A stretch of DNA of 64,000 bases from Caldimonas tepidiphila (lineage in GTDB: Bacteria; Pseudomonadota; Gammaproteobacteria; Burkholderiales; Burkholderiaceae_C), in contig NZ_QXMG01000001.1 of assembly GCF_003569765.1 (NCBI RefSeq), positions 124,001 to 188,000 on the forward strand, in the 5' to 3' direction. The position numbers were made by a program, and so were the translations under genes. The first letter of the stretch is position 1. The number at the start of each line of letters is the position of its first letter. Below, piece after piece: positions 20,886 to 30,367 of the stretch. The notes beneath the pieces were generated by a model. It saw nothing but the letters and a program-made list of their open reading frames with translations, was not told where the DNA came from and did not search any database.

Positions 20886-22211
20886 TCAGGGGAACAGCCA
20901 CCACACCAGCCCGAGGCTGATCCCGGGGAAGGCCAGCACGAGCGCGGTGCGCACGAAGTCCCAGGCCAGGAAGGGCAGCACGCCCTTGTAGGTCTCGACC
21001 ATCGGCACGTCCTTGCAGGTGCTGTTGACGACGTAGACGTTCAGGCCCACGGGCGGCGCGATCAGGCCGACGCCCATCACCATCAGCGTCAGGATGCCGA
21101 ACCAGATCGCCTTGGACTCGGGCGCCATGCCCCACAGGTCCAGGCCCATGATCGCGGGGAACAGCACCGGCACCGTGAGCATGATCATCGACAGCTCGTC
21201 CATCACGCAGCCGAGCACGACGTAGAGCAGCAGGATCGTGCCGATGATCGCCAGCGGCGGGATCTCGAGGTTCGAGACCCAGTCGGCCAGCGCGGTCGGC
21301 ATCTGCGTGAGCGCGAGCGACGAGTTGATCATGTCGGCGCCGAGGAAGATCATGAACACCATCGCCGAGGTCTCGGCGGTGCCGAGGAAGGAGTTCATGA
21401 TCGCCTTGCCACCCATCTCGCGGCGCGCCAAGGCCGCGATGAAGGTGCCGAGGGCGCCGACCGCCGCGCCTTCCGTCGGCGTGAACAGGCCCTGGTAGAT
21501 GCCGCCGAAGACCAGCACGAAGATCGTCGCGATCGGCCACACCCGGGCGAGCGCCTTCCAGCGCTGGTTCCAGGGCATCGGCTCCATCGGCTCGGCGAGC
21601 TCGGGTCGGGCGCGCACGTACAGCGCGATCACGGCGAGGTAGCCGAGGGCCGCGAGCAGGCCCGGGATCATCGCCGCGGCGAAGAGCTTGGCGATGTTCT
21701 GCTCGGTCAGGATCGCGTAGACCACGAGCGGCACCGAGGGCGGGATCAGGATGCCGAGCGTGCCGCCGGTGGCGAGCACGCCGGTGGACAGCCGGCCGTG
21801 GTAGCCGTGGGACTTCATCTCGGGATAGGCCACCTGCGCGATCGTCGCGGAGGTCGCCACCGACGAGCCGCACACCGCGCCGAACGCGGCGGCGGCGAGG
21901 ATCGCCGCCATGGCCAGGCCGCCGCGGATGTGGCCGATGAAGGCCGCCGCGGCACGGAACAGGTCGCGCGAGAGTCCGCCCTGCGTGGCGAACTGGCCCA
22001 TCAGCAGGAACAGCGGGATCACTGACAGGTCGTAGACCGTCAGGCGCGCGACCGCCGAGCCCTTGAGCATGTTGAACAGCGCGGCGTCGCTCGTCATCGC
22101 CCAGTAGCCGATGGCGCCGGGGATGAACATCGCCGCGGCGATCGGGATGCGCACGACCATCAAGGCCAGCATCCCGCCGAACATCAGCAGGCCGATCGTG
22201 GTGCCGCTCAT
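20886..22211 (-). CDS. dctM: TRAP transporter large permease (DctM family)
   Basis: 441 aa with about 12 hydrophobic helices, the length of DctM/SiaM large subunits. Family landmarks include GAVCGSSVATSATI and YPEMKSHGYHGRLSTGVLATGGTLGILIPPSVPLVVY, the region that binds the periplasmic protein and substrate. With DctQ it forms the sodium-driven inner-membrane channel. It overlaps the DctQ stop by 4 bp (ATGA), so the two are translationally coupled. It is the last gene of the three-gene TRAP operon and ends near the 20826-20862 terminator. Confidence 0.96.
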   Translation of the reverse strand: MSGTTIGLLMFGGMLALMVVRIPIAAAMFIPGAIGYWAMTSDAALFNMLKGSAVARLTVYDLSVIPLFLLMGQFATQGGLSRDLFRAAAAFIGHIRGGLAMAAILAAAAFGAVCGSSVATSATIAQVAYPEMKSHGYHGRLSTGVLATGGTLGILIPPSVPLVVYAILTEQNIAKLFAAAMIPGLLAALGYLAVIALYVRARPELAEPMEPMPWNQRWKALARVWPIATIFVLVFGGIYQGLFTPTEGAAVGALGTFIAALARREMGGKAIMNSFLGTAETSAMVFMIFLGADMINSSLALTQMPTALADWVSNLEIPPLAIIGTILLLYVVLGCVMDELSMIMLTVPVLFPAIMGLDLWGMAPESKAIWFGILTLMVMGVGLIAPPVGLNVYVVNSTCKDVPMVETYKGVLPFLAWDFVRTALVLAFPGISLGLVWWLFP

Positions 22212-22705
22212 GCCTTCACCTCGCTGCCTTGTTCTTCATGGTTCTCGAGCCGCAGCAGGCCCTGCGCGAGCGCGATCAGCAGCGTCAGCGCGAGTCCCGG
22301 CGCCAGCACCGCGTAGGTGATCCACATCGGCAGCCCGAGGATCATCGTCGTCTCCGCCGCCTCATGCACCGAGACCGCGCCCACCGCGGTGCGCCAAGCG
22401 AGCAGCGCCATCATCGAGGCGAGCAGCAGCGAGCCGAGCGAGTCGAGCCGGCGCTGCGTGCCCTCGGAGGCCCGGGCGGTGAAGAAGTCGACGATGATGT
22501 TGCCGCCGCGCAGCTGGCACCAGGGCAGGCACAGCGAGATGCACAGCGCGATGCCGAACTGCGTCAGCTCGATGTCGCCGGGCACCGGCGTCATGAACAG
22601 CGCGCGGCCGACGATGCTGGCGACGGTCATCAGCGCCACCGCGCCGCCGATCAGGCAGCCGGCGAGCGCGAACCAGCGCGCCAGGAAGCGGAAGAAGGGG
22701 AACAT
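22208..22705 (-). CDS. dctQ: TRAP transporter small permease (DctQ family)
   Basis: 165 aa with four hydrophobic helices, the typical DctQ layout, including the family segment GIALCISLCLPWCQLRGGNIIVDFF. It partners DctM in the membrane. The start ATG at 22705 (MFPFFRFLARW) is favoured by the ribosome site GGGAG just upstream; a longer frame begins 45 bases earlier without one. The gene follows dctP by 133 bp that contain a hairpin, and overlaps dctM by 4 bp. Confidence 0.92.
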   Translation of the reverse strand: MFPFFRFLARWFALAGCLIGGAVALMTVASIVGRALFMTPVPGDIELTQFGIALCISLCLPWCQLRGGNIIVDFFTARASEGTQRRLDSLGSLLLASMMALLAWRTAVGAVSVHEAAETTMILGLPMWITYAVLAPGLALTLLIALAQGLLRLENHEEQGSEVKA

Positions 22706-22750
22706 CGGATCTCCCAGGCGTGCACCGACGGCGGCACGCCACGAAAACAA

Positions 22751-22779
22751 CCGCCCCGCGACGCTGGGCCAGGGGGCGG
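22751..22779 (-). terminator. Possible attenuator hairpin between dctP and dctQ
   Basis: A 7-bp GC stem (22751-22757 with 22773-22779) is followed, on the minus strand, by TTGTTTT. This would reduce read-through from dctP into dctQM, a common way to make the binding protein in excess of the permease. The loop is long (15 bases), so the call is tentative. Confidence 0.4.
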
Positions 22780-22838
22780 AGAGGATCGTCCGCGACGGGC
22801 CCCGCTCGGGGAGCGGAGCCGGCCCGGATCTCAGGTCG

Positions 22839-23876
22839 TCACTTGCCGGTGCCGTGCTTCACGAGCAGGTCGCGGGCTTCCTGCAGCATCTGCTTGCCGG
22901 GCTGACCGAGCTTGTCCATGTTGGCCACGTACTCGTCGTACAGGCCGGCCGAGGCCTTCTTCCAGCGATCGATCTCGGTGTCCGGCAGCGTGTGGAAGGT
23001 GTTGCCGCGCCCCTCGGCCGCCTTGCGCCCCGTTTCCTGGCTCTCGTCCCAGGCCCGGCCGGCCATCGCCGACAGGCTCGCGCCGCTGTTGCGGTCGATC
23101 ACCGCCTTCAGATCCGCGGGCAGGCTGTTGTACTTGGCCGGGTTCATCGCCATCACGAACACCGAGGTGTAGAGCGCCTGGCTGCCCTCGGGCGTCAGCG
23201 TGTGGTGCTTGACCATCTCGTGCAGCTTCAGCGCCGGGAACACCTCCCAGGGCAGCAGGAAGCCGTCGATCACGCCCTTGCTCACCGCCTCGGGCACCGC
23301 CGGCAGCGGCATCGCCACGGGCGTGGCGCCGAGCGAGGCCAGCAGCTTGTTGGTCATGCGCGTCGGCGCGCGGAATTTCATGCCGCGCAGGTCCTCCATC
23401 GTCTTGACCTGCTTGGCGCGCGTGTGCAGGTAGCCCTCGTCGTGCACCGAGAAGAACAGCGGCTTCACGCTCGCGAATTCCTTCTGGCCGTACTTGGTGT
23501 AGAAGTCCCAGGCCGCCTTGGCGCCGGCCTCGGCGGAGCTCGTCATGAAGGGCAGCTCGAACACCTCCATGACGGGGAAGCGCCCGGCGGTGTAGCCCGG
23601 CAGCGTGATCGTGAGGTCAACCACGCCGTCCTTGACCTGGTCGATCAGCTGCGCCGGCGTGCCGCCGAGCTGCATCGACGGGAACAGCTGGCACTTCATG
23701 CGGTTGTTGGACTCCGCGGCGATCTTCGCGCACCAGGGCTCGATGACCTTCTGCGGCACCATCGCGTTCGGCGTCCAGATGTGGTGGAACTTCAGCGTCA
23801 CTTCCTGGGCGCCTGCCGAGGCGGCGGCGGCCGCGAGAACCGTGGCCGTCAGGGCCAGCTTGAGGGTTTTCTTCAC
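22839..23876 (-). CDS. dctP: TRAP transporter substrate-binding protein (DctP family)
   Basis: 345 aa with a signal peptide (KKTLKLALTATVLAAAAASAGAQE). The DctP/SiaP fold is shown by GGTPAQLIDQVKDGVVDLT, the substrate-carboxylate arginine in MKFRAPTRM, and VSKGVIDGFLLPWEVFPALKLHEMV. These proteins bind an organic acid in the periplasm. The start is a GTG at 23876, set by AGGAGAC (23881-23887 on the minus strand) 4 bases before it; an ATG much further upstream lacks such a site and would spoil the signal peptide. First gene of the TRAP operon and divergent from the IclR regulator. The ligand is unknown. Confidence 0.94.
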   Translation of the reverse strand: MKKTLKLALTATVLAAAAASAGAQEVTLKFHHIWTPNAMVPQKVIEPWCAKIAAESNNRMKCQLFPSMQLGGTPAQLIDQVKDGVVDLTITLPGYTAGRFPVMEVFELPFMTSSAEAGAKAAWDFYTKYGQKEFASVKPLFFSVHDEGYLHTRAKQVKTMEDLRGMKFRAPTRMTNKLLASLGATPVAMPLPAVPEAVSKGVIDGFLLPWEVFPALKLHEMVKHHTLTPEGSQALYTSVFVMAMNPAKYNSLPADLKAVIDRNSGASLSAMAGRAWDESQETGRKAAEGRGNTFHTLPDTEIDRWKKASAGLYDEYVANMDKLGQPGKQMLQEARDLLVKHGTGK

Positions 23877-23983
23877 GAAAGTCTCCTGATTCGGGGGAGC
23901 CGTGGTCTGCTCTTGCATCGCACGGGAAGGGCTCGCAAAGCCTGGGGAGGATCGATTGACGTCCATTTCCCCTTGAGCCAGAT

Positions 23984-24038
23984 TAAACTAACCGGAAGCC
24001 ATTCGGCTTTGCTGAACGTGGGCTTGATGTTAGTTAAC
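23984..24038. promoter_or_regulatory. Candidate operator pair between dctP and the IclR gene
   Basis: TTAAACTAAC (23983/23984-23992) and GTTAGTTAAC (24029-24038) face each other as near-perfect inverted copies 36 bases apart, in an AT-rich pocket of an otherwise GC-rich intergenic region. IclR regulators commonly bind palindromes between divergent genes. The assignment to this regulator is inference. Confidence 0.4.
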
Positions 24039-24048
24039 ACATTCAACT

Positions 24049-24945
24049 ATGTCTAATGCTAGCCGCCTAGGGATTTCCATTAGTCCCGAGGACGAGTCCC
24101 GTTCGGAAGAGGCCCGCGGCGAGCGGAACAGACGCGGCATCCAGAGCGTGGAAGTGGGCGGACTGCTGCTGCGCGCGCTCGCCCATGTCGGGCGGCCGAT
24201 GCCGCTGAAGGACTTGGCGCGCGAGGCCGGCATGTCGCCGCCGAAGGCGCATCCCTACCTGGTGAGCTTCTGCAAGCTCGGGCTGATCGAGCAGGATGCG
24301 ACGAGCGGGCATTACGGCCTGGGCCCGCTCGCGCTGCAGCTCGGGCTCATCAGCCTGCAGCAGCACGACCCGGTGCGCGTAGCCACGCCACTGATGACGC
24401 AGCTGTGCCGCGACACCGGGCACACGGTGGCGATCGCGCTGTGGGGCACGCACGGGCCGACCATCGTGCGCACCGAGGAGGCGATCACGCCGGTGCACGT
24501 GAACATGCGCCACGGCACGGTGATGTCGATCGTCGACACCGCCTCCGGCCAGTTGCTGGCGGCCTACAAGCCGCCCGAGCAGGTGAAGGCGCTGTTCGAC
24601 GGCGAACTGGCCCGGGAGCGCGCCAACCCCTGGAGGGACGCGCCGATGGCCCTGGGCTCCACCGTCAAGCTGCCGCCGCTGCCGGAATGGGAGGCGTTCC
24701 AGCAGCAGCTCGCCCGCGTGCGCACGCAGGGGGTGAGCATCGCGATCGACCGGCTGGTGCCGGGCATCTGCGCGATGTCGGTGCCCGTGTTCGACTACAG
24801 CGGCTCGGTCGTGCTGGCACTGACCGTGATCGGCCCCTCGGGCATCTTCGACACCCGTGCCGACGGGGTCCTGGCACAGGTGCTCAAGGCCTGCGCACGC
24901 CAGATTTCCCAGCGGCTCGGCGCCCTGGCCGCCCGTTGCGCCTGA
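24049..24945 (+). CDS. IclR family transcriptional regulator
   Basis: 298 aa. A charged 30-residue leader precedes a winged helix-turn-helix (SVEVGGLLLRALAHVGRPMPLKDLAREAGMSPPKAHPYL, about residues 33-71) and the C-terminal IclR effector domain (about 110-290) with ALWGTHGPTIVR and GICAMSVPVFDYSGSVVLALTVIGP. It is transcribed away from dctP, so local control of the TRAP operon in response to its substrate is the likely role. Possible operators lie between the two starts. Confidence 0.92.
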   Translation: MSNASRLGISISPEDESRSEEARGERNRRGIQSVEVGGLLLRALAHVGRPMPLKDLAREAGMSPPKAHPYLVSFCKLGLIEQDATSGHYGLGPLALQLGLISLQQHDPVRVATPLMTQLCRDTGHTVAIALWGTHGPTIVRTEEAITPVHVNMRHGTVMSIVDTASGQLLAAYKPPEQVKALFDGELARERANPWRDAPMALGSTVKLPPLPEWEAFQQQLARVRTQGVSIAIDRLVPGICAMSVPVFDYSGSVVLALTVIGPSGIFDTRADGVLAQVLKACARQISQRLGALAARCA

Positions 24946-25215: not shown

Positions 25216-26406
25216 ATGGCTGGCACGCGTCGCCCCTCTTCCTGCCCGGCCGACAGGGAGCCCACCACTTCCGCCCCCCGGCGCGATTTCCTGAAAGCCT
25301 CCGCCACGCTCGGCCTCGGCCTCGCCGCCCCCGCGGTCTGGGCCCAGAGCGGCTCCACCATCCGGCTGGGGCAGACCACCTGCCTGAGCGGCCCGCTCTC
25401 GGAACTTGGCCAAGCGAACATGGAAGGTGCGAGGGCCTGTTTCGCGGCGATCAATGCCCGCGGTGGCATCAACGGAGCACAGATCGAACTCGTCACGAAG
25501 GACGATGCCTACGAGGCGCCGAAGGCGGTGGAGAACGTGCAGGGCTTCCTGGCGGACCCCTCCATCCTCGCGCTGTTCAACTGTTTCGGCACGCCCATCG
25601 TCGAGGCCTGCCTGCCGATGCTGCGCTCGTCCGGCATCCCCTTCTTCACGCCGTACACCGGGGCCTTGCTGGCGCGCCCCAAGGACATGCGAAACATTTT
25701 CAATGTCCGCGCAAGCTATCCCGAGGAGGCGGAGCAATTGGTTCAGCACCTGACGACGATCGGCATCCGGCGGATCGCGGTCATCTACCAGAACAATGCC
25801 TTCGGCAGGGAGGTGTTCGCCGGCGCCGAAGCCGCGCTGGCCAAGCGCAAGCTGAGCACCGTGGCCTCCGCCACCGTCGAGAGTTCGGGCGACGATGCGG
25901 ACGCGGCAGCGCGCAAGGTCGTCACCGTGGAACCCGAGGCCATCCTGCTCGGCCTCGCCGGCAGGCCGACGCTGCTGACCGTCAGGAGCATCAGGGCATT
26001 GCGACGCGGCGTGCCGCTGTACGCGCTGTCGGTCATGGGTGCCTCGTCGACGCTCAACGCGTTGGGCGACGAGGGCGTGGGAATGACCGTATCGCAGATC
26101 GTGCCGCAGCCGACCAATCCCACCATCCTGATCGCGCGCGAGTTCATGGAAGCCTGGCGTGCGTCCGGCACTGCTCTGCCGCCCTCGCACACGGCGCTCG
26201 AGGGCTACATCAACGCCAAGGTGTTCGCGGAGGCGCTGCGGCGGGCGGGACGGCAGCCGACGCGTGCGGCGCTGATCGACAGCGTCTGGAGCCTCAAGCA
26301 ACTCGACCTCGGCGGGTTCACGGTGAGCTTCAACGAGCCGGGCAGCAGCGCAAGTCGCTTCATCGAGTTGACGATGCTCGCACGCGGCGGCAAGCTCGTG
26401 CGCTGA
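25216..26406 (+). CDS. ABC transporter periplasmic binding protein (LivK-like), Tat-exported
   Basis: 396 aa. The leader carries a twin-arginine motif (PRRDFLKAS, about residues 22-30) and a hydrophobic stretch ending AVWAQ, so export by Tat is likely. The mature part is a type I binding fold of the branched-chain amino acid group (IRLGQTTCLSGPLSELGQ, FGTPIVEACLPML, YPEEAEQLV, YQNNAFGREVF). It is a close paralog of the next gene along its whole length. No permease or ATPase is encoded nearby, so it either serves a transporter elsewhere or acts as a ligand sensor. It begins 270 bp after the IclR gene. Ligand unknown. Confidence 0.9.
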   Translation: MAGTRRPSSCPADREPTTSAPRRDFLKASATLGLGLAAPAVWAQSGSTIRLGQTTCLSGPLSELGQANMEGARACFAAINARGGINGAQIELVTKDDAYEAPKAVENVQGFLADPSILALFNCFGTPIVEACLPMLRSSGIPFFTPYTGALLARPKDMRNIFNVRASYPEEAEQLVQHLTTIGIRRIAVIYQNNAFGREVFAGAEAALAKRKLSTVASATVESSGDDADAAARKVVTVEPEAILLGLAGRPTLLTVRSIRALRRGVPLYALSVMGASSTLNALGDEGVGMTVSQIVPQPTNPTILIAREFMEAWRASGTALPPSHTALEGYINAKVFAEALRRAGRQPTRAALIDSVWSLKQLDLGGFTVSFNEPGSSASRFIELTMLARGGKLVR

Positions 26407-26711: not shown

Positions 26712-27899
26712 ATGAAGGCCCAGCATTGCCCCCCCCTTTCCGTCTCGCCGGAACCGGAGTTCCCGTCGGGCGAGAGACGCCGTTTCCTCCAGGTCTCGGC
26801 CGCCGTGGGGCTCGGCCTCGCAGCGGGGAGCGGGTGGGCCCAGGCACGCGACACCCTTCGTCTCGGCCAGTCGACCGCGCTGACCGGCCCCCAGAGCGAG
26901 CTCGGCCTCGCGAACCACGAGGGCGCCAAGGCCTGCTTCGCCGCGCTCAATGCCAAGGGCGGCATCAACGGCATGAAGATCGAGCTCGTCGCACGCGACG
27001 ACGGCTACGACGCCAGGCGGGCGGCGGCGAATGTCGAGGCCTTCATCGCCGACCCGGGCATCTTCGCGCTCATCAACTGCTTCGGCACGCCGATGGTCGA
27101 GGCCAGCCTGCCGCTGGTGCGTGCCTCGGGCATCCCCTATTTCGCCCCCTTCACCGGCGCGATGCTGGCACGGCCCAAGGACATGCGCAACGTCTTCAAC
27201 GTGCGCGCCAGCTATCCGGAGGAGGCGGAGCAACTCGTGGCGCATCTCACGCTCGGCATGCGCCGCATCGCGGTGCTCTACCAGCGCAACTCCTTCGGCA
27301 TGGAGGTGTTCGAGGGCGTCAAGGACTCGCTGGCCAAGCGCAAGCTCTCGCCCGTATCCTTCGCCACGATCGAGAACGACGGCTCCGATGCCGACTCCTC
27401 CACCCGCAAGGTGCTGAGCGACGACCCGGAAGCCGTGGTGCTGGCGCTCGCGGGCAAGCCGGTGGCACCGGCGATCCGGACGCTGCGGGCGGCCAAGCCC
27501 GGGCTACCCCTCTACGCGCTGTCCGTGATGGGTTCGGCGGCGACGGTGACCGCGCTCGGCGACGACGCGACGGGGCTGACGGTGTCGCAGATCGTGCCGA
27601 TGCCCACCAATCCGGTCCGTCCGGTGGTCCATGACTTCCTCCAGGACTGGCGCGCCCTCGGCACCGCGCTGCCCCCCTCGCATGTCGCGCTGGAGGGCTA
27701 CATCAACGCGCGCGTGTTCATCGAGGCGCTGAAGCTCACCGGCCGCAACCTGACCCGCACCGCCTTCATCGACAGCGTCTGGAACATGAAGAAGGTGGAT
27801 CTCGGCGGCTTCGAGATCAATTTCAGCGAGCCGGGACGCGGCGCGAGCCGTTTCGTGGAGCTCACGATGGTGGCGCGAGGCGGCAAGTTCATCCGCTAG
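26712..27899 (+). CDS. ABC transporter periplasmic binding protein (LivK-like), Tat-exported paralog
   Basis: 395 aa, colinear with and clearly paralogous to the preceding gene (shared blocks include FAALNAKGGINGM, PKDMRN, NVRASYPEEAEQLV, LPPSHVALEGYINA and SRFVELTMVARGGK). The leader has GERRRFLQVS and ends GWAQ, again a twin-arginine type. The start ATG at 26712 has GAGGAGC upstream at 26700. It has its own 305-bp upstream region with a palindrome. No transport partners are adjacent. The pair looks like a tandem duplication whose members may bind different ligands. Confidence 0.9.
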   Translation: MKAQHCPPLSVSPEPEFPSGERRRFLQVSAAVGLGLAAGSGWAQARDTLRLGQSTALTGPQSELGLANHEGAKACFAALNAKGGINGMKIELVARDDGYDARRAAANVEAFIADPGIFALINCFGTPMVEASLPLVRASGIPYFAPFTGAMLARPKDMRNVFNVRASYPEEAEQLVAHLTLGMRRIAVLYQRNSFGMEVFEGVKDSLAKRKLSPVSFATIENDGSDADSSTRKVLSDDPEAVVLALAGKPVAPAIRTLRAAKPGLPLYALSVMGSAATVTALGDDATGLTVSQIVPMPTNPVRPVVHDFLQDWRALGTALPPSHVALEGYINARVFIEALKLTGRNLTRTAFIDSVWNMKKVDLGGFEINFSEPGRGASRFVELTMVARGGKFIR

Positions 27900-28073
27900 A
27901 AGATCTCCAGCGCAGGGCAGGCGCGGCGGGCGGCACTGCGGCCCGGCTGCCCGCCGCCCGCTCCCGATTCGTCGCGACGCGGCTCACGCCCACCCTTCAA
28001 GGCGCGCCGTTTGCCTGTTCCAGGGAATCCCGGCATCCCCAGTCCGGGGCTTTCTTGCGAAAGGAGGCGCACG

Positions 28074-28580
28074 ATGAAAAGCCGCGTCCAGCTGCTGGGC
28101 CACCCGGTCCACCAGATGCTCATCGCTTTCCCGCTCGGGCTGCTCGCCACGGCGGTGATCTTCGACATCATCCACCTGATCGGCGGCAGCGCCGAGATGG
28201 CCGGCGTCGCCTACTGGCTCGTGCTGGCCGGCCTGATCGGGGCCGCGGTGGCCTCGCCCTTCGGCACGCTCGACTGGATGCACATTCCCCGGGGCACGCG
28301 TGCCAAGCGCATCGGCGCGCTGCACGGGATCGGCAATCTGGTGATGACGCTGCTCTTCCTCGGCAGCTGGCTGCTGCGCCCCGAGCCTCCCGGCACACCG
28401 GGGATGCTCGCCCTCGTGCTGTCCTTCGCCGGCGCGGCGCTGTCGCTGGTGACGGCCTGGCTCGGCGGCGAACTGGTCGACCGGCTCGGCGTGGGCGTGT
28501 ACGAGGACGCGAACCTCGACGCGCCGAACTCGCTCGACCGCGAGCCGCTCGCCAGCGTGCAACTGAGCCGCCACCGCTGA
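28074..28580 (+). CDS. DUF2231 domain membrane protein
   Basis: 168 aa with four hydrophobic segments. The family signature GHPVHQMLIAFPLGLLATAVIFDI is at the N-terminus, followed by IPRGTRAKRIGALHGIGN and a soluble charged tail. DUF2231 proteins are inner-membrane proteins of unknown function, often with conserved histidines that suggest heme or metal binding. The start ATG at 28074 is set by AAGGAGG at 28061-28067. It lies alone between the binding-protein pair and rpoH. Confidence 0.9.
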   Translation: MKSRVQLLGHPVHQMLIAFPLGLLATAVIFDIIHLIGGSAEMAGVAYWLVLAGLIGAAVASPFGTLDWMHIPRGTRAKRIGALHGIGNLVMTLLFLGSWLLRPEPPGTPGMLALVLSFAGAALSLVTAWLGGELVDRLGVGVYEDANLDAPNSLDREPLASVQLSRHR

Positions 28581-28678
28581 GCGCCCGCGGAAGGCGCCGG
28601 CCCCGGGAGCGGGGCGGACCTGCCGGGTCCGGGCCGCAACGATCGGCCCCGGCAGAGCCGTTCCATCTCCGGCCGGCT

Positions 28679-28705
28679 TTAGCACTCCGGCGACCCGAGT
28701 GCTAA
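28679..28705. promoter_or_regulatory. CIRCE element (HrcA operator) upstream of rpoH
   Basis: TTAGCACTC, nine bases, GAGTGCTAA: an exact match to the CIRCE consensus, 33 bases before the rpoH start. CIRCE is bound by the repressor HrcA, which depends on GroEL and releases on heat shock. No hrcA gene is in the window. Confidence 0.93.
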
Positions 28706-28738
28706 CATGAACGGAACGAAAGGAGCGTACGCCGGTCT

Positions 28739-29680
28739 ATGACTACCATGAACACTGCGAACACTTCTACTGGAGCCCTGACCCTGCGTGACCCCTGGGC
28801 CCTGGTGCCCTCGCTCGGCAACCTGGACGCCTACATCAGCGCGGTCAACCGCATCCCGCTGCTCAGCGCCGACGAGGAGGTTTCGCTGGCGCGCCGGTGG
28901 CGCAAGGAGAACGACCTCGCGGCGGCCGGCCGCCTGGTGCTGTCGCACCTGCGACTGGTGGTGTCAGTGTCGCGACAGTACCTGGGTTACGGCCTGCCGC
29001 AGGGCGACCTGATTCAGGAGGGCAACGTCGGCCTGATGAAGGCCGTCAAGCGCTTCGACCCCGAGCAGGGCGTGCGGCTGGTGAGCTATGCGCTGCACTG
29101 GATCAAGGCCGAGATCCACGAGTACATCCTGCGCAACTGGCGCATGGTGAAGGTCGCGACGACCAAGGCGCAGCGCAAGCTCTTCTTCAACCTGCGCTCG
29201 ATGAAGCAGAACCTGAAGGAGGAGGCGCCCGACGCGGACGCGCACCGCTCGACGCTCACCGACCACGAGATCGACGTGGTGGCGGACCACCTGAAGGTCA
29301 AGCGCGAGGACGTCATCGAGATGGAGACGCGCCTGTCGGGCGGCGACGTGGCGCTGGAGCCGACGCCGGACGACGGCGGCGAGGAGAGCTACGCGCCGAT
29401 CGCCTACCTGGCCGACGAGTCGCACGAGCCGACGCGGGTCATCGAGTCGCAGCGCCGCGACCTGCTGACGAGCCACGGCATCGGCGAGGCGCTCGACAGC
29501 CTCGACCCGCGCAGCCGCCGCATCGTCGAGGAGCGCTGGCTGAAGGTCAACGACGACGGCAGCGGCGGCATGACGCTGCACGAGCTGGCGGCCGAGTACG
29601 GCGTGAGTGCCGAGCGCATCCGCCAGATCGAGGTCGCGGCGATGAAGAAGATGCGCAAGGCGCTGGCGGAATACGCCTGA
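28739..29680 (+). CDS. rpoH: RNA polymerase heat-shock sigma factor (sigma-32)
   Basis: 313 aa, slightly longer than E. coli RpoH (284). Region 2 contains LRLVVSVSRQYLGYGLPQGDLIQEGNVGLMKAVKRFDPEQGVRLVSYALHWIKAEIHEYI, where the alternate RpoH-type -10 recognition lies; the RpoH box follows region 2.4 (QRKLFFNLRSMKQ), and region 4 ends with a helix-turn-helix (TLHELAAEYGVSAERIRQIEVAAMKKM). A short insert after the RpoH box (GGDVALEPTPDDGGEES) is acidic. It directs transcription of heat-shock genes. The ribosome site AAAGGAG lies about 13 bases before the ATG at 28739, longer than usual. A CIRCE element overlies its upstream region; a terminator follows. Confidence 0.97.
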   Translation: MTTMNTANTSTGALTLRDPWALVPSLGNLDAYISAVNRIPLLSADEEVSLARRWRKENDLAAAGRLVLSHLRLVVSVSRQYLGYGLPQGDLIQEGNVGLMKAVKRFDPEQGVRLVSYALHWIKAEIHEYILRNWRMVKVATTKAQRKLFFNLRSMKQNLKEEAPDADAHRSTLTDHEIDVVADHLKVKREDVIEMETRLSGGDVALEPTPDDGGEESYAPIAYLADESHEPTRVIESQRRDLLTSHGIGEALDSLDPRSRRIVEERWLKVNDDGSGGMTLHELAAEYGVSAERIRQIEVAAMKKMRKALAEYA

Positions 29681-29707
29681 AGCTGCACGCGCATCGCTCG
29701 TGAAAAC

Positions 29708-29736
29708 GAAACGGCCCCTTCGGGGCCGTTTCTCTT
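29708..29736 (+). terminator. Rho-independent terminator after rpoH
   Basis: Perfect 11-bp stem (29708-29718 with 29722-29732) with a 3-base TTC loop, followed by TCTCTTT. It sits between convergent rpoH and the SCO gene and can serve both strands, since A-rich bases also precede it. Confidence 0.88.
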
Positions 29737-29764
29737 TGGTGCGGGCGCCTCTGGGCCCTGCGGC

Positions 29765-30367
29765 TCAGGCGCTGAGCAGCTGGCGCAGGTCGGCCGCGAG
29801 CGCCTGCGGGCCCATGTTGTGGCGGCCGTACAGGCGCAGCCGGCCGCTGGTGTCGTAGACGTAGATCCCGGCGGTGTGGTCCATCGTGTAGCTGCCCTCG
29901 CTCTTGCCGGGCACCTTCTTGTAGTAGACCTTGAAGTCCTTCGCCACCGCCGCGGTCTGCTCCGGCGTGCCGCGCAGCGCGAGGAAGGACGGGTCGAAGT
30001 TCGTCATGTAGGCCTTCAGCAACTCGGGCGTGTCGCGCTCCGGGTCGACCGTGACGAAGAGGCCCTGCACCCGCTCGCCGTCGGGGCCGAGCGCCTGCTT
30101 GGCCTGCGCGAGCTCGGCCATCGCCGACGGGCAGACGTCCGGGCACTGCGTGAAGCCGAAGAACACGACGACGACCTTGCCGCGGAAGTCGGCGAGCGAG
30201 CGCTCCTGGCCGTTGTGGTCGGTCAGGCGCAGGTCCTGCGCGTAGGACGCGCCGGTCAGGTCGATGCTGTTGAAGCTGCCGGAGGAGGCGCCGGGCGCGG
30301 CACCACGGTCGCAGGCGGCGAGCGCCGCGCTGGCGCCGAGTGCCAGCAGGAGCATGCGTCGTTTCAT
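29765..30367 (-). CDS. SCO family copper chaperone for cytochrome oxidase
   Basis: 200 aa lipoprotein: the lipobox is LAAC with the cysteine at residue 19. The thioredoxin-like core has the copper motif C75-P-D-V-C79 (FTQCPDVCPSAM) and the third ligand His164 (MDHTAGIYVYD). SCO proteins deliver copper to the CuA site of subunit II or reduce its cysteines. It is the last gene of the assembly operon SURF1-SCO-like-ctaA-ctaB-SCO, 5 bp after ctaB. Confidence 0.95.
   Translation of the reverse strand: MKRRMLLLALGASAALAACDRGAAPGASSGSFNSIDLTGASYAQDLRLTDHNGQERSLADFRGKVVVVFFGFTQCPDVCPSAMAELAQAKQALGPDGERVQGLFVTVDPERDTPELLKAYMTNFDPSFLALRGTPEQTAAVAKDFKVYYKKVPGKSEGSYTMDHTAGIYVYDTSGRLRLYGRHNMGPQALAADLRQLLSA

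Follow-up and report, generated by a model that had tools for sequence, protein, structure and literature searches.

Accounts of bacterial heat shock usually treat the HrcA-type and the sigma-32-type circuits as running in parallel, with groESL as a shared target. The locus analysed here raises the question of whether the two are joined: an inverted repeat resembling CIRCE, the operator of HrcA, lies just before rpoH, the gene for the heat-shock sigma factor itself. A sequence-only reading of the window (the whole stretch of DNA that was analysed, 64,000 nucleotides) had claimed that this repeat matches the CIRCE consensus exactly, that it lies 33 bases before rpoH, and that it would place rpoH under HrcA.

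An exact CIRCE repeat before rpoH

The repeat reads TTAGCACTC-CGGCGACCC-GAGTGCTAA, and its arms agree at 18 of 18 positions with the CIRCE consensus TTAGCACTC-N9-GAGTGCTAA, as given in PMC545781. Exactly 33 bases separate it from the start codon, a promoter or leader placement of the kind found at heat-shock genes, and the product of that gene passes the RpoH (sigma-32) equivalog model above its curated cut-off (Table 1). Both the exact match and the distance to rpoH were thus as first claimed. This is the single CIRCE match of the window at up to three mismatches, and 100 dinucleotide-preserving shuffles of the window gave 0 matches at the same tolerance.

Table 1. Features of the rpoH locus (positions in the window)
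Feature	Position	Strand	Basis
CIRCE inverted repeat, predicted HrcA operator	28679..28705	+	exact consensus; same position before rpoH in order and class samples
Candidate -35, TTAGCA at the left end of CIRCE	28679..28684	+	4/6 to TTGACA; 18 bp upstream of -10; role predicted
TGCTAACAT, candidate extended -10	28700..28708	+	right-arm end of CIRCE plus three bases; role predicted
Predicted transcription start	28715	+	about 7 bases past -10; placed from the -10 position
AAAGGAG, probable ribosome-binding site	28719..28725	+	sequence
rpoH, heat-shock sigma factor, 313 aa	28739..29680	+	TIGR02392 393.8 bits, cut-off 323.1
Intrinsic terminator-like hairpin 3′ of rpoH	29708..29732	+	

A gene for a DUF2231 predicted membrane protein is found directly 5′ of the rpoH promoter (28011-28580, + strand). 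Further upstream are tandem periplasmic binding proteins, both Peripla_BP_6 (25216-26406 and 26712-27899, + strand), and a cluster (20886-24945) containing a DctP solute-binding protein (22839-23966, − strand). The DctP gene is adjoined by two membrane-like frames (20886-22750, − strand), a TRAP transporter by look only, and an IclR-type regulator lies near it (24049-24945, + strand).

hrcA and CIRCE in the source genome

If rpoH is an HrcA target, the repressor gene should be found elsewhere in the genome, as the sequence-only reading had noted. The whole assembly was scanned (5.47 Mb in 178 contigs, 99.69% complete), and hrcA is present at C6:49121-49777 (PF01628, E 1.5e-67), in a frame of 342 amino acids where both the HrcA C-terminal domain and the HrcA DNA-binding domain were found. 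At up to three mismatches the assembly holds two CIRCE places: the rpoH site, with none, and a second with one mismatch, at C6:32535-32561, ahead of the groES and groEL frames, on the same contig as hrcA and about 16.6 kb away from it. A reversed control pattern gave no match across the whole assembly. Since only these two places exist at this threshold, the predicted HrcA regulon of this genome consists of groESL and rpoH.

The site accompanies hrcA within the order

All nine genomes of the genus that were read carry CIRCE before rpoH (9 of 9), none with more than 1 mismatch; the eight of them other than the window's own stand outside the hrcA co-occurrence table, which takes in genomes searched for hrcA. 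Among named-record loci, it was present in 80 of 80 (the best 80 of 589 candidates) at up to two mismatches, 64 of them exact, and these 80 span Methylibium, Roseateles, Comamonas, Variovorax, Acidovorax and many metagenome assemblies.

A wider sample comprised 160 genomes from 50 families, at least 90% complete, of an order that we take to be Burkholderiales, in a class that we take to be Gammaproteobacteria in the GTDB sense, judging from the named relatives. The regions upstream of rpoH (about 420 bases) were read for 149 genes from 148 genomes in 46 families, G054 contributing two. Left out were G037, G052 and G129, which had no rpoH match, and G137, because of a contig edge; in G047, G048, G073, G091, G092, G095, G148 and G162 the upstream region was not read. 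Each of the two rpoH genes of G054 (L148, L156) has its own CIRCE and its own GGAACTT box.

An hrcA match was obtained in 144 of the 160 genomes, G091 being scored positive although its match is incomplete and interrupted by a stop. Where the genome has hrcA, CIRCE preceded rpoH in every region (141 of 141) at up to four mismatches; where hrcA is lacking it did so in 0 of 8, the best candidate having five mismatches. These counts are not independent, as the sampled genomes are related. The 141 sites divide into 59 exact ones and 50, 25, 4 and 3 with one, two, three and four mismatches, respectively. The search of relatives that the sequence-only reading had proposed came out in its favour in the genus, among the named loci and in the order. 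The eight regions represent 8 of the 16 hrcA-less genomes and belong to five families (f4, f19, f24, f34 and f44). Because sister genomes in f4, f24 and f34 retain the gene and the site together, hrcA was probably lost several times independently in the order.

Most sampled genomes have two or three CIRCE-like matches at up to three mismatches; G145, of family f15, has six.

Class and phylum samples

A class-wide sample contained hrcA in 75 of 104 genomes and an rpoH above the model cut-off in 94 of 104. Upstream regions were read for 60 of the 104 (52 of the 75 with hrcA, 8 of the 29 without). In these regions, picked mainly by descending rpoH score and not randomly, CIRCE preceded rpoH in 48 of 52 genomes with hrcA at up to three mismatches, 31 being exact, and in 0 of 8 without it. 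The hrcA-bearing genomes in which CIRCE was missing at three mismatches are G229, G191, G197 and G263; in G263 the arms are 8 bases apart, not 9, and of the two rpoH genes in G197 the one close to a contig edge was not included.

For the phylum, 30 of 60 genomes were considered, those with the best rpoH scores, and only the best rpoH where there were several. CIRCE was found at rpoH in 5 of 5 hrcA-bearing members of the class, four of them already present in the earlier samples, and in 0 of 10 hrcA-less members, of which G173 is shared with the class sample. Before the best rpoH of 15 genomes of other classes no CIRCE was found (0 of 15), though 14 carry hrcA, so that hrcA does not imply CIRCE at rpoH outside the class. 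In the phylum sample, the rule linking hrcA to CIRCE at rpoH is valid within the class and not outside.

Candidate promoter elements within the repeat

Base frequencies at the 141 order rpoH sites were compared with those at 30 groE sites (the 30 best-scoring groE loci only). The third base 3′ of CIRCE is T in 98% of the rpoH sites versus 7% of the groE sites. In the eleven bases that follow this T at the order rpoH sites, the frequency of T is 26%; in the class sample, T is the third base after CIRCE in 44 of 48 sites. The rpoH sites read TGCTA(A/G)nAT, a candidate extended -10 into which the right arm runs, and the third base of the candidate -35 is G (TTGGCA or CTGGCA) in 38% of the 141 relatives. 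Operator and repressor are the same as in HrcA control of groESL, but the anatomy differs: at the 30 groE loci CIRCE comes after a CTTGAAA...CCCTATnA-like promoter, whereas the rpoH arms themselves hold putative promoter elements.

In the window, both hexamers match the sigma-70 consensus (TTGACA for the -35) at 4 of 6 positions with a spacing of 18 bp, where about 17 bp is typical, and the candidate extended -10 fits TGn-TAnnnT. A strict sigma-70 promoter scan of 28500-29800 found nothing. Because of these 4/6 matches and the empty scan, we put the vegetative promoter of the window forward as a proposal. Since at rpoH, unlike at groESL, the right arm enters a candidate extended -10, the predicted HrcA operator probably doubles there as the promoter. 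Our main reading, to which we give a probability of roughly 85%, is that the repeat would be a working HrcA operator and simultaneously the rpoH core promoter.

A sigma-E-like promoter through the predicted operator in many relatives

A sigma-E-like box was defined as GGAACTT-N15-17-TCnnA, with at least 5 of 7 matches in the -35 and the -10 in or beside the CIRCE spacer. This pair occurred at 94 of the 141 order sites, compared to 59.4 +/- 2.9 when the left flanks were permuted (largest value 70 in 1000 permutations), and at 42 of the 80 named loci (best 80 of 589), compared to a permuted mean of 20.8 (largest 29). The class sample had it at 31 of 48 sites, versus 25.5 +/- 1.4 (largest 30). 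The permutation of flanks ignores kinship, so part of these excesses reflects shared descent. None of the 30 groE sites carried the pair. At the order sites, its -35 and -10 shift jointly, in three main registers; the class sample showed a single one. A scan with a fixed -10 position was tried and given up: its count was 90 of 141, the box in the four other f1 genomes having escaped it, and it was the sliding -10 that gave the three registers.

No sigma-E-like box was found at the operator in the window's genus (0 of 9), two of the nine members having one further upstream. The nearest named loci without the box at the operator include Methylibium sp. Root1272 and Roseateles toxinivorans. The source genome does have a gene for RpoE, above the cut-off of its model.

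Upstream of rpoH, E. coli K-12 has TGAACTT-N16-TCTGA, a promoter of the sigma-E type known as P3, a name also used in PMC3490749, and it matches the box of many relatives. E. coli K-12 differs in that no CIRCE was found within 300 bases upstream of its rpoH (closest match 7 mismatches), and E. coli was not among the control genomes that matched hrcA in a profile search.

How much would such an operator matter? In E. coli, sigma-32 is mainly controlled post-transcriptionally, for which reason a transcriptional operator might matter little. It could be that HrcA binds, but that other promoters, or sigma-32 translation and stability, set the output of rpoH, the operator fine-tuning the basal level. 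We consider this unlikely, though it is the likeliest of the alternatives. In many relatives, the sigma-E-like promoter lies across the site. Transcription of Bordetella bronchiseptica rpoH by the RpoE-like SigE, from a promoter close to consensus immediately 5′ of the gene, is reported in vitro (PMC3490749); HrcA and CIRCE have no mention in the main text of that paper. Several rpoH starts are also reported for Cupriavidus metallidurans (PMC7563307). However, a sigma-E-like promoter that crosses the operator would be blocked too, the box is absent from the site in all nine genomes of the window's genus, and the co-occurrence of the site with hrcA implies selection. The reading of the repeat as both operator and core promoter keeps our preference.

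Decay of the site where hrcA is missing

G041, which has no hrcA, retains a repeat with five mismatches, and its GGAACTT is still there; three hrcA-bearing genomes of the same family have 0 or 1 CIRCE mismatch. In family f155, two of the three hrcA-less genomes have lost the left arm and kept most of the right arm together with the candidate -10 (GCAGTGCTAGACT and GCAGTGCTACACT). Survival of the right arm is what one would expect if it had a second role, in the promoter. G290, the remaining one, has a decayed right arm as well, so that retention of this arm is not strict.

Two other genomes without hrcA have distinctive arrangements at rpoH. Before rpoH of G120 (L120) lies an altered palindrome, CAGGCACT...AGTGCCTG, whose spacer is 2 bases shorter than that of CIRCE; it may be a remnant of the operator or may serve some other factor. 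At rpoH of G219 (L328) there are two CIRCE-like arms with one mismatch each, 16 bases apart and not 9.

A role as RNA, or none

The arms of CIRCE are complementary, and in Bacillus CIRCE has effects on mRNA. The repeat might thus act mainly as RNA, with transcription starting upstream and a hairpin in the 5′ leader controlling the stability or translation of rpoH mRNA independently of HrcA. We hold this to be quite improbable, since it is the CIRCE sequence itself that is conserved, and the site vanishes with hrcA. The near-fixed T found third after CIRCE at rpoH, and not at groE, fits a promoter, and in 8 of 9 genus members the folding energy of the leader 3′ of the repeat stays within 1 sd of the shuffled mean. 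That the repeat is a chance or inherited sequence devoid of function is scarcely credible, in view of the empty shuffles, of the 14 or more arm positions, out of 18, retained in every one of the 141 hrcA-bearing regions, and of its being decayed or absent in genomes that lack hrcA.

An RNA thermometer around the rpoH ribosome-binding site was considered separately and rejected: eight of nine sequences lay within 1 sd of mononucleotide shuffles, and L007 about 1.5 sd lower. In several genus members, the ribosome-binding site is framed by GGAAC...GTTC (28713-28738; L007-L014), of which the window has only GGAAC.

Precedents

Earlier surveys may bear on this arrangement. Permina and Gelfand (2003) reportedly treated the heat-shock regulons of beta-, gamma- and epsilon-proteobacteria, a work that by its title covers CIRCE and may list rpoH; a 2007 study is said to deal with RpoH of Geobacter sulfurreducens, and the HrcA lists of RegPrecise may include rpoH. 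Geobacter sulfurreducens lies outside the class sampled here. For this species, CIRCE before rpoH was predicted as an HrcA site in 2004 (PMC545781, Table 8), so that the placement in itself is no novelty. The likeness is close: in the same source, the rpoH site is an exact-consensus CIRCE, at -51, and groESL belongs to the regulon. The differences are the lineage, the listing of rpoH in Table 8 for that species only, and the hrcA-grpE-dnaK-dnaJ operon, which also has a CIRCE there (PMC545781), whereas the only other place in the window's genome is groESL.

In the literature found with CIRCE and rpoH, including PMC9959188 and PMC10696704, only PMC545781 puts CIRCE before rpoH, as far as the accessible sections of these papers go. 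Likewise, the accessible sections of PMC3490749, PMC7563307, PMC3135505 and PMC3224663 make no mention of CIRCE at rpoH. The literature searched, which included little of the subscription literature, yielded no paper describing the arrangement in the window's order, and no paper was found in it that treats an hrcA mutant together with rpoH. The class-wide rule with its dependence on hrcA, and the anatomy in which the operator is the promoter, may be the new parts.

Proposed mechanism and its meaning

The original proposal that rpoH is under HrcA gains support from the presence of hrcA and from the sites of relatives; what is added to it here is the class-wide arrangement, the overlap with candidate promoter elements and the precedent in PMC545781. 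HrcA binding, repression by occlusion of the promoter, titration of GroEL, the response to temperature and the size of the heat effect are what we infer from the sequences compared. HrcA on the repeat would hide both the -35-like TTAGCA and the candidate extended -10 and thereby exclude the vegetative RNA polymerase. Heat or unfolded protein would lower HrcA activity, either directly or because GroEL, needed for active HrcA, is busy; modulation of HrcA by GroE is described for Bacillus subtilis and Chlamydia trachomatis (PMC9959188). With less active HrcA, groESL and rpoH would be derepressed jointly, and the new sigma-32 would switch on the wider heat-shock regulon. As the window's genus is without a sigma-E-like box at the operator, a vegetative promoter together with HrcA would be the main transcriptional control of rpoH there.

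The site is almost always kept with hrcA and gone without it in the sampled relatives of the class, and for this reason the HrcA and sigma-32 systems, the two classic ones of the heat-shock response, appear to be linked throughout a large bacterial group. A broader joint reading, on which we would lay even odds, is that HrcA control of rpoH is ancestral for the whole class (Gammaproteobacteria including the beta group), that the rpoH promoter was a composite whose HrcA operator served as vegetative promoter and had a sigma-E promoter inside it as well, that E. coli and other hrcA-less members are what remains after loss of hrcA, and that the window's lineage dropped the sigma-E input. In that case, stress signals from the cytoplasm (GroEL/HrcA) and from the envelope (sigma-E) would converge on one stretch of 60 bases.

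The order includes tractable laboratory species, which makes direct testing possible. If HrcA occupies rpoH in most hrcA-bearing members of the class, the supply of sigma-32 would be tied to the load on GroEL at the level of transcription, and the textbook circuit of E. coli would be a derived, simplified case.
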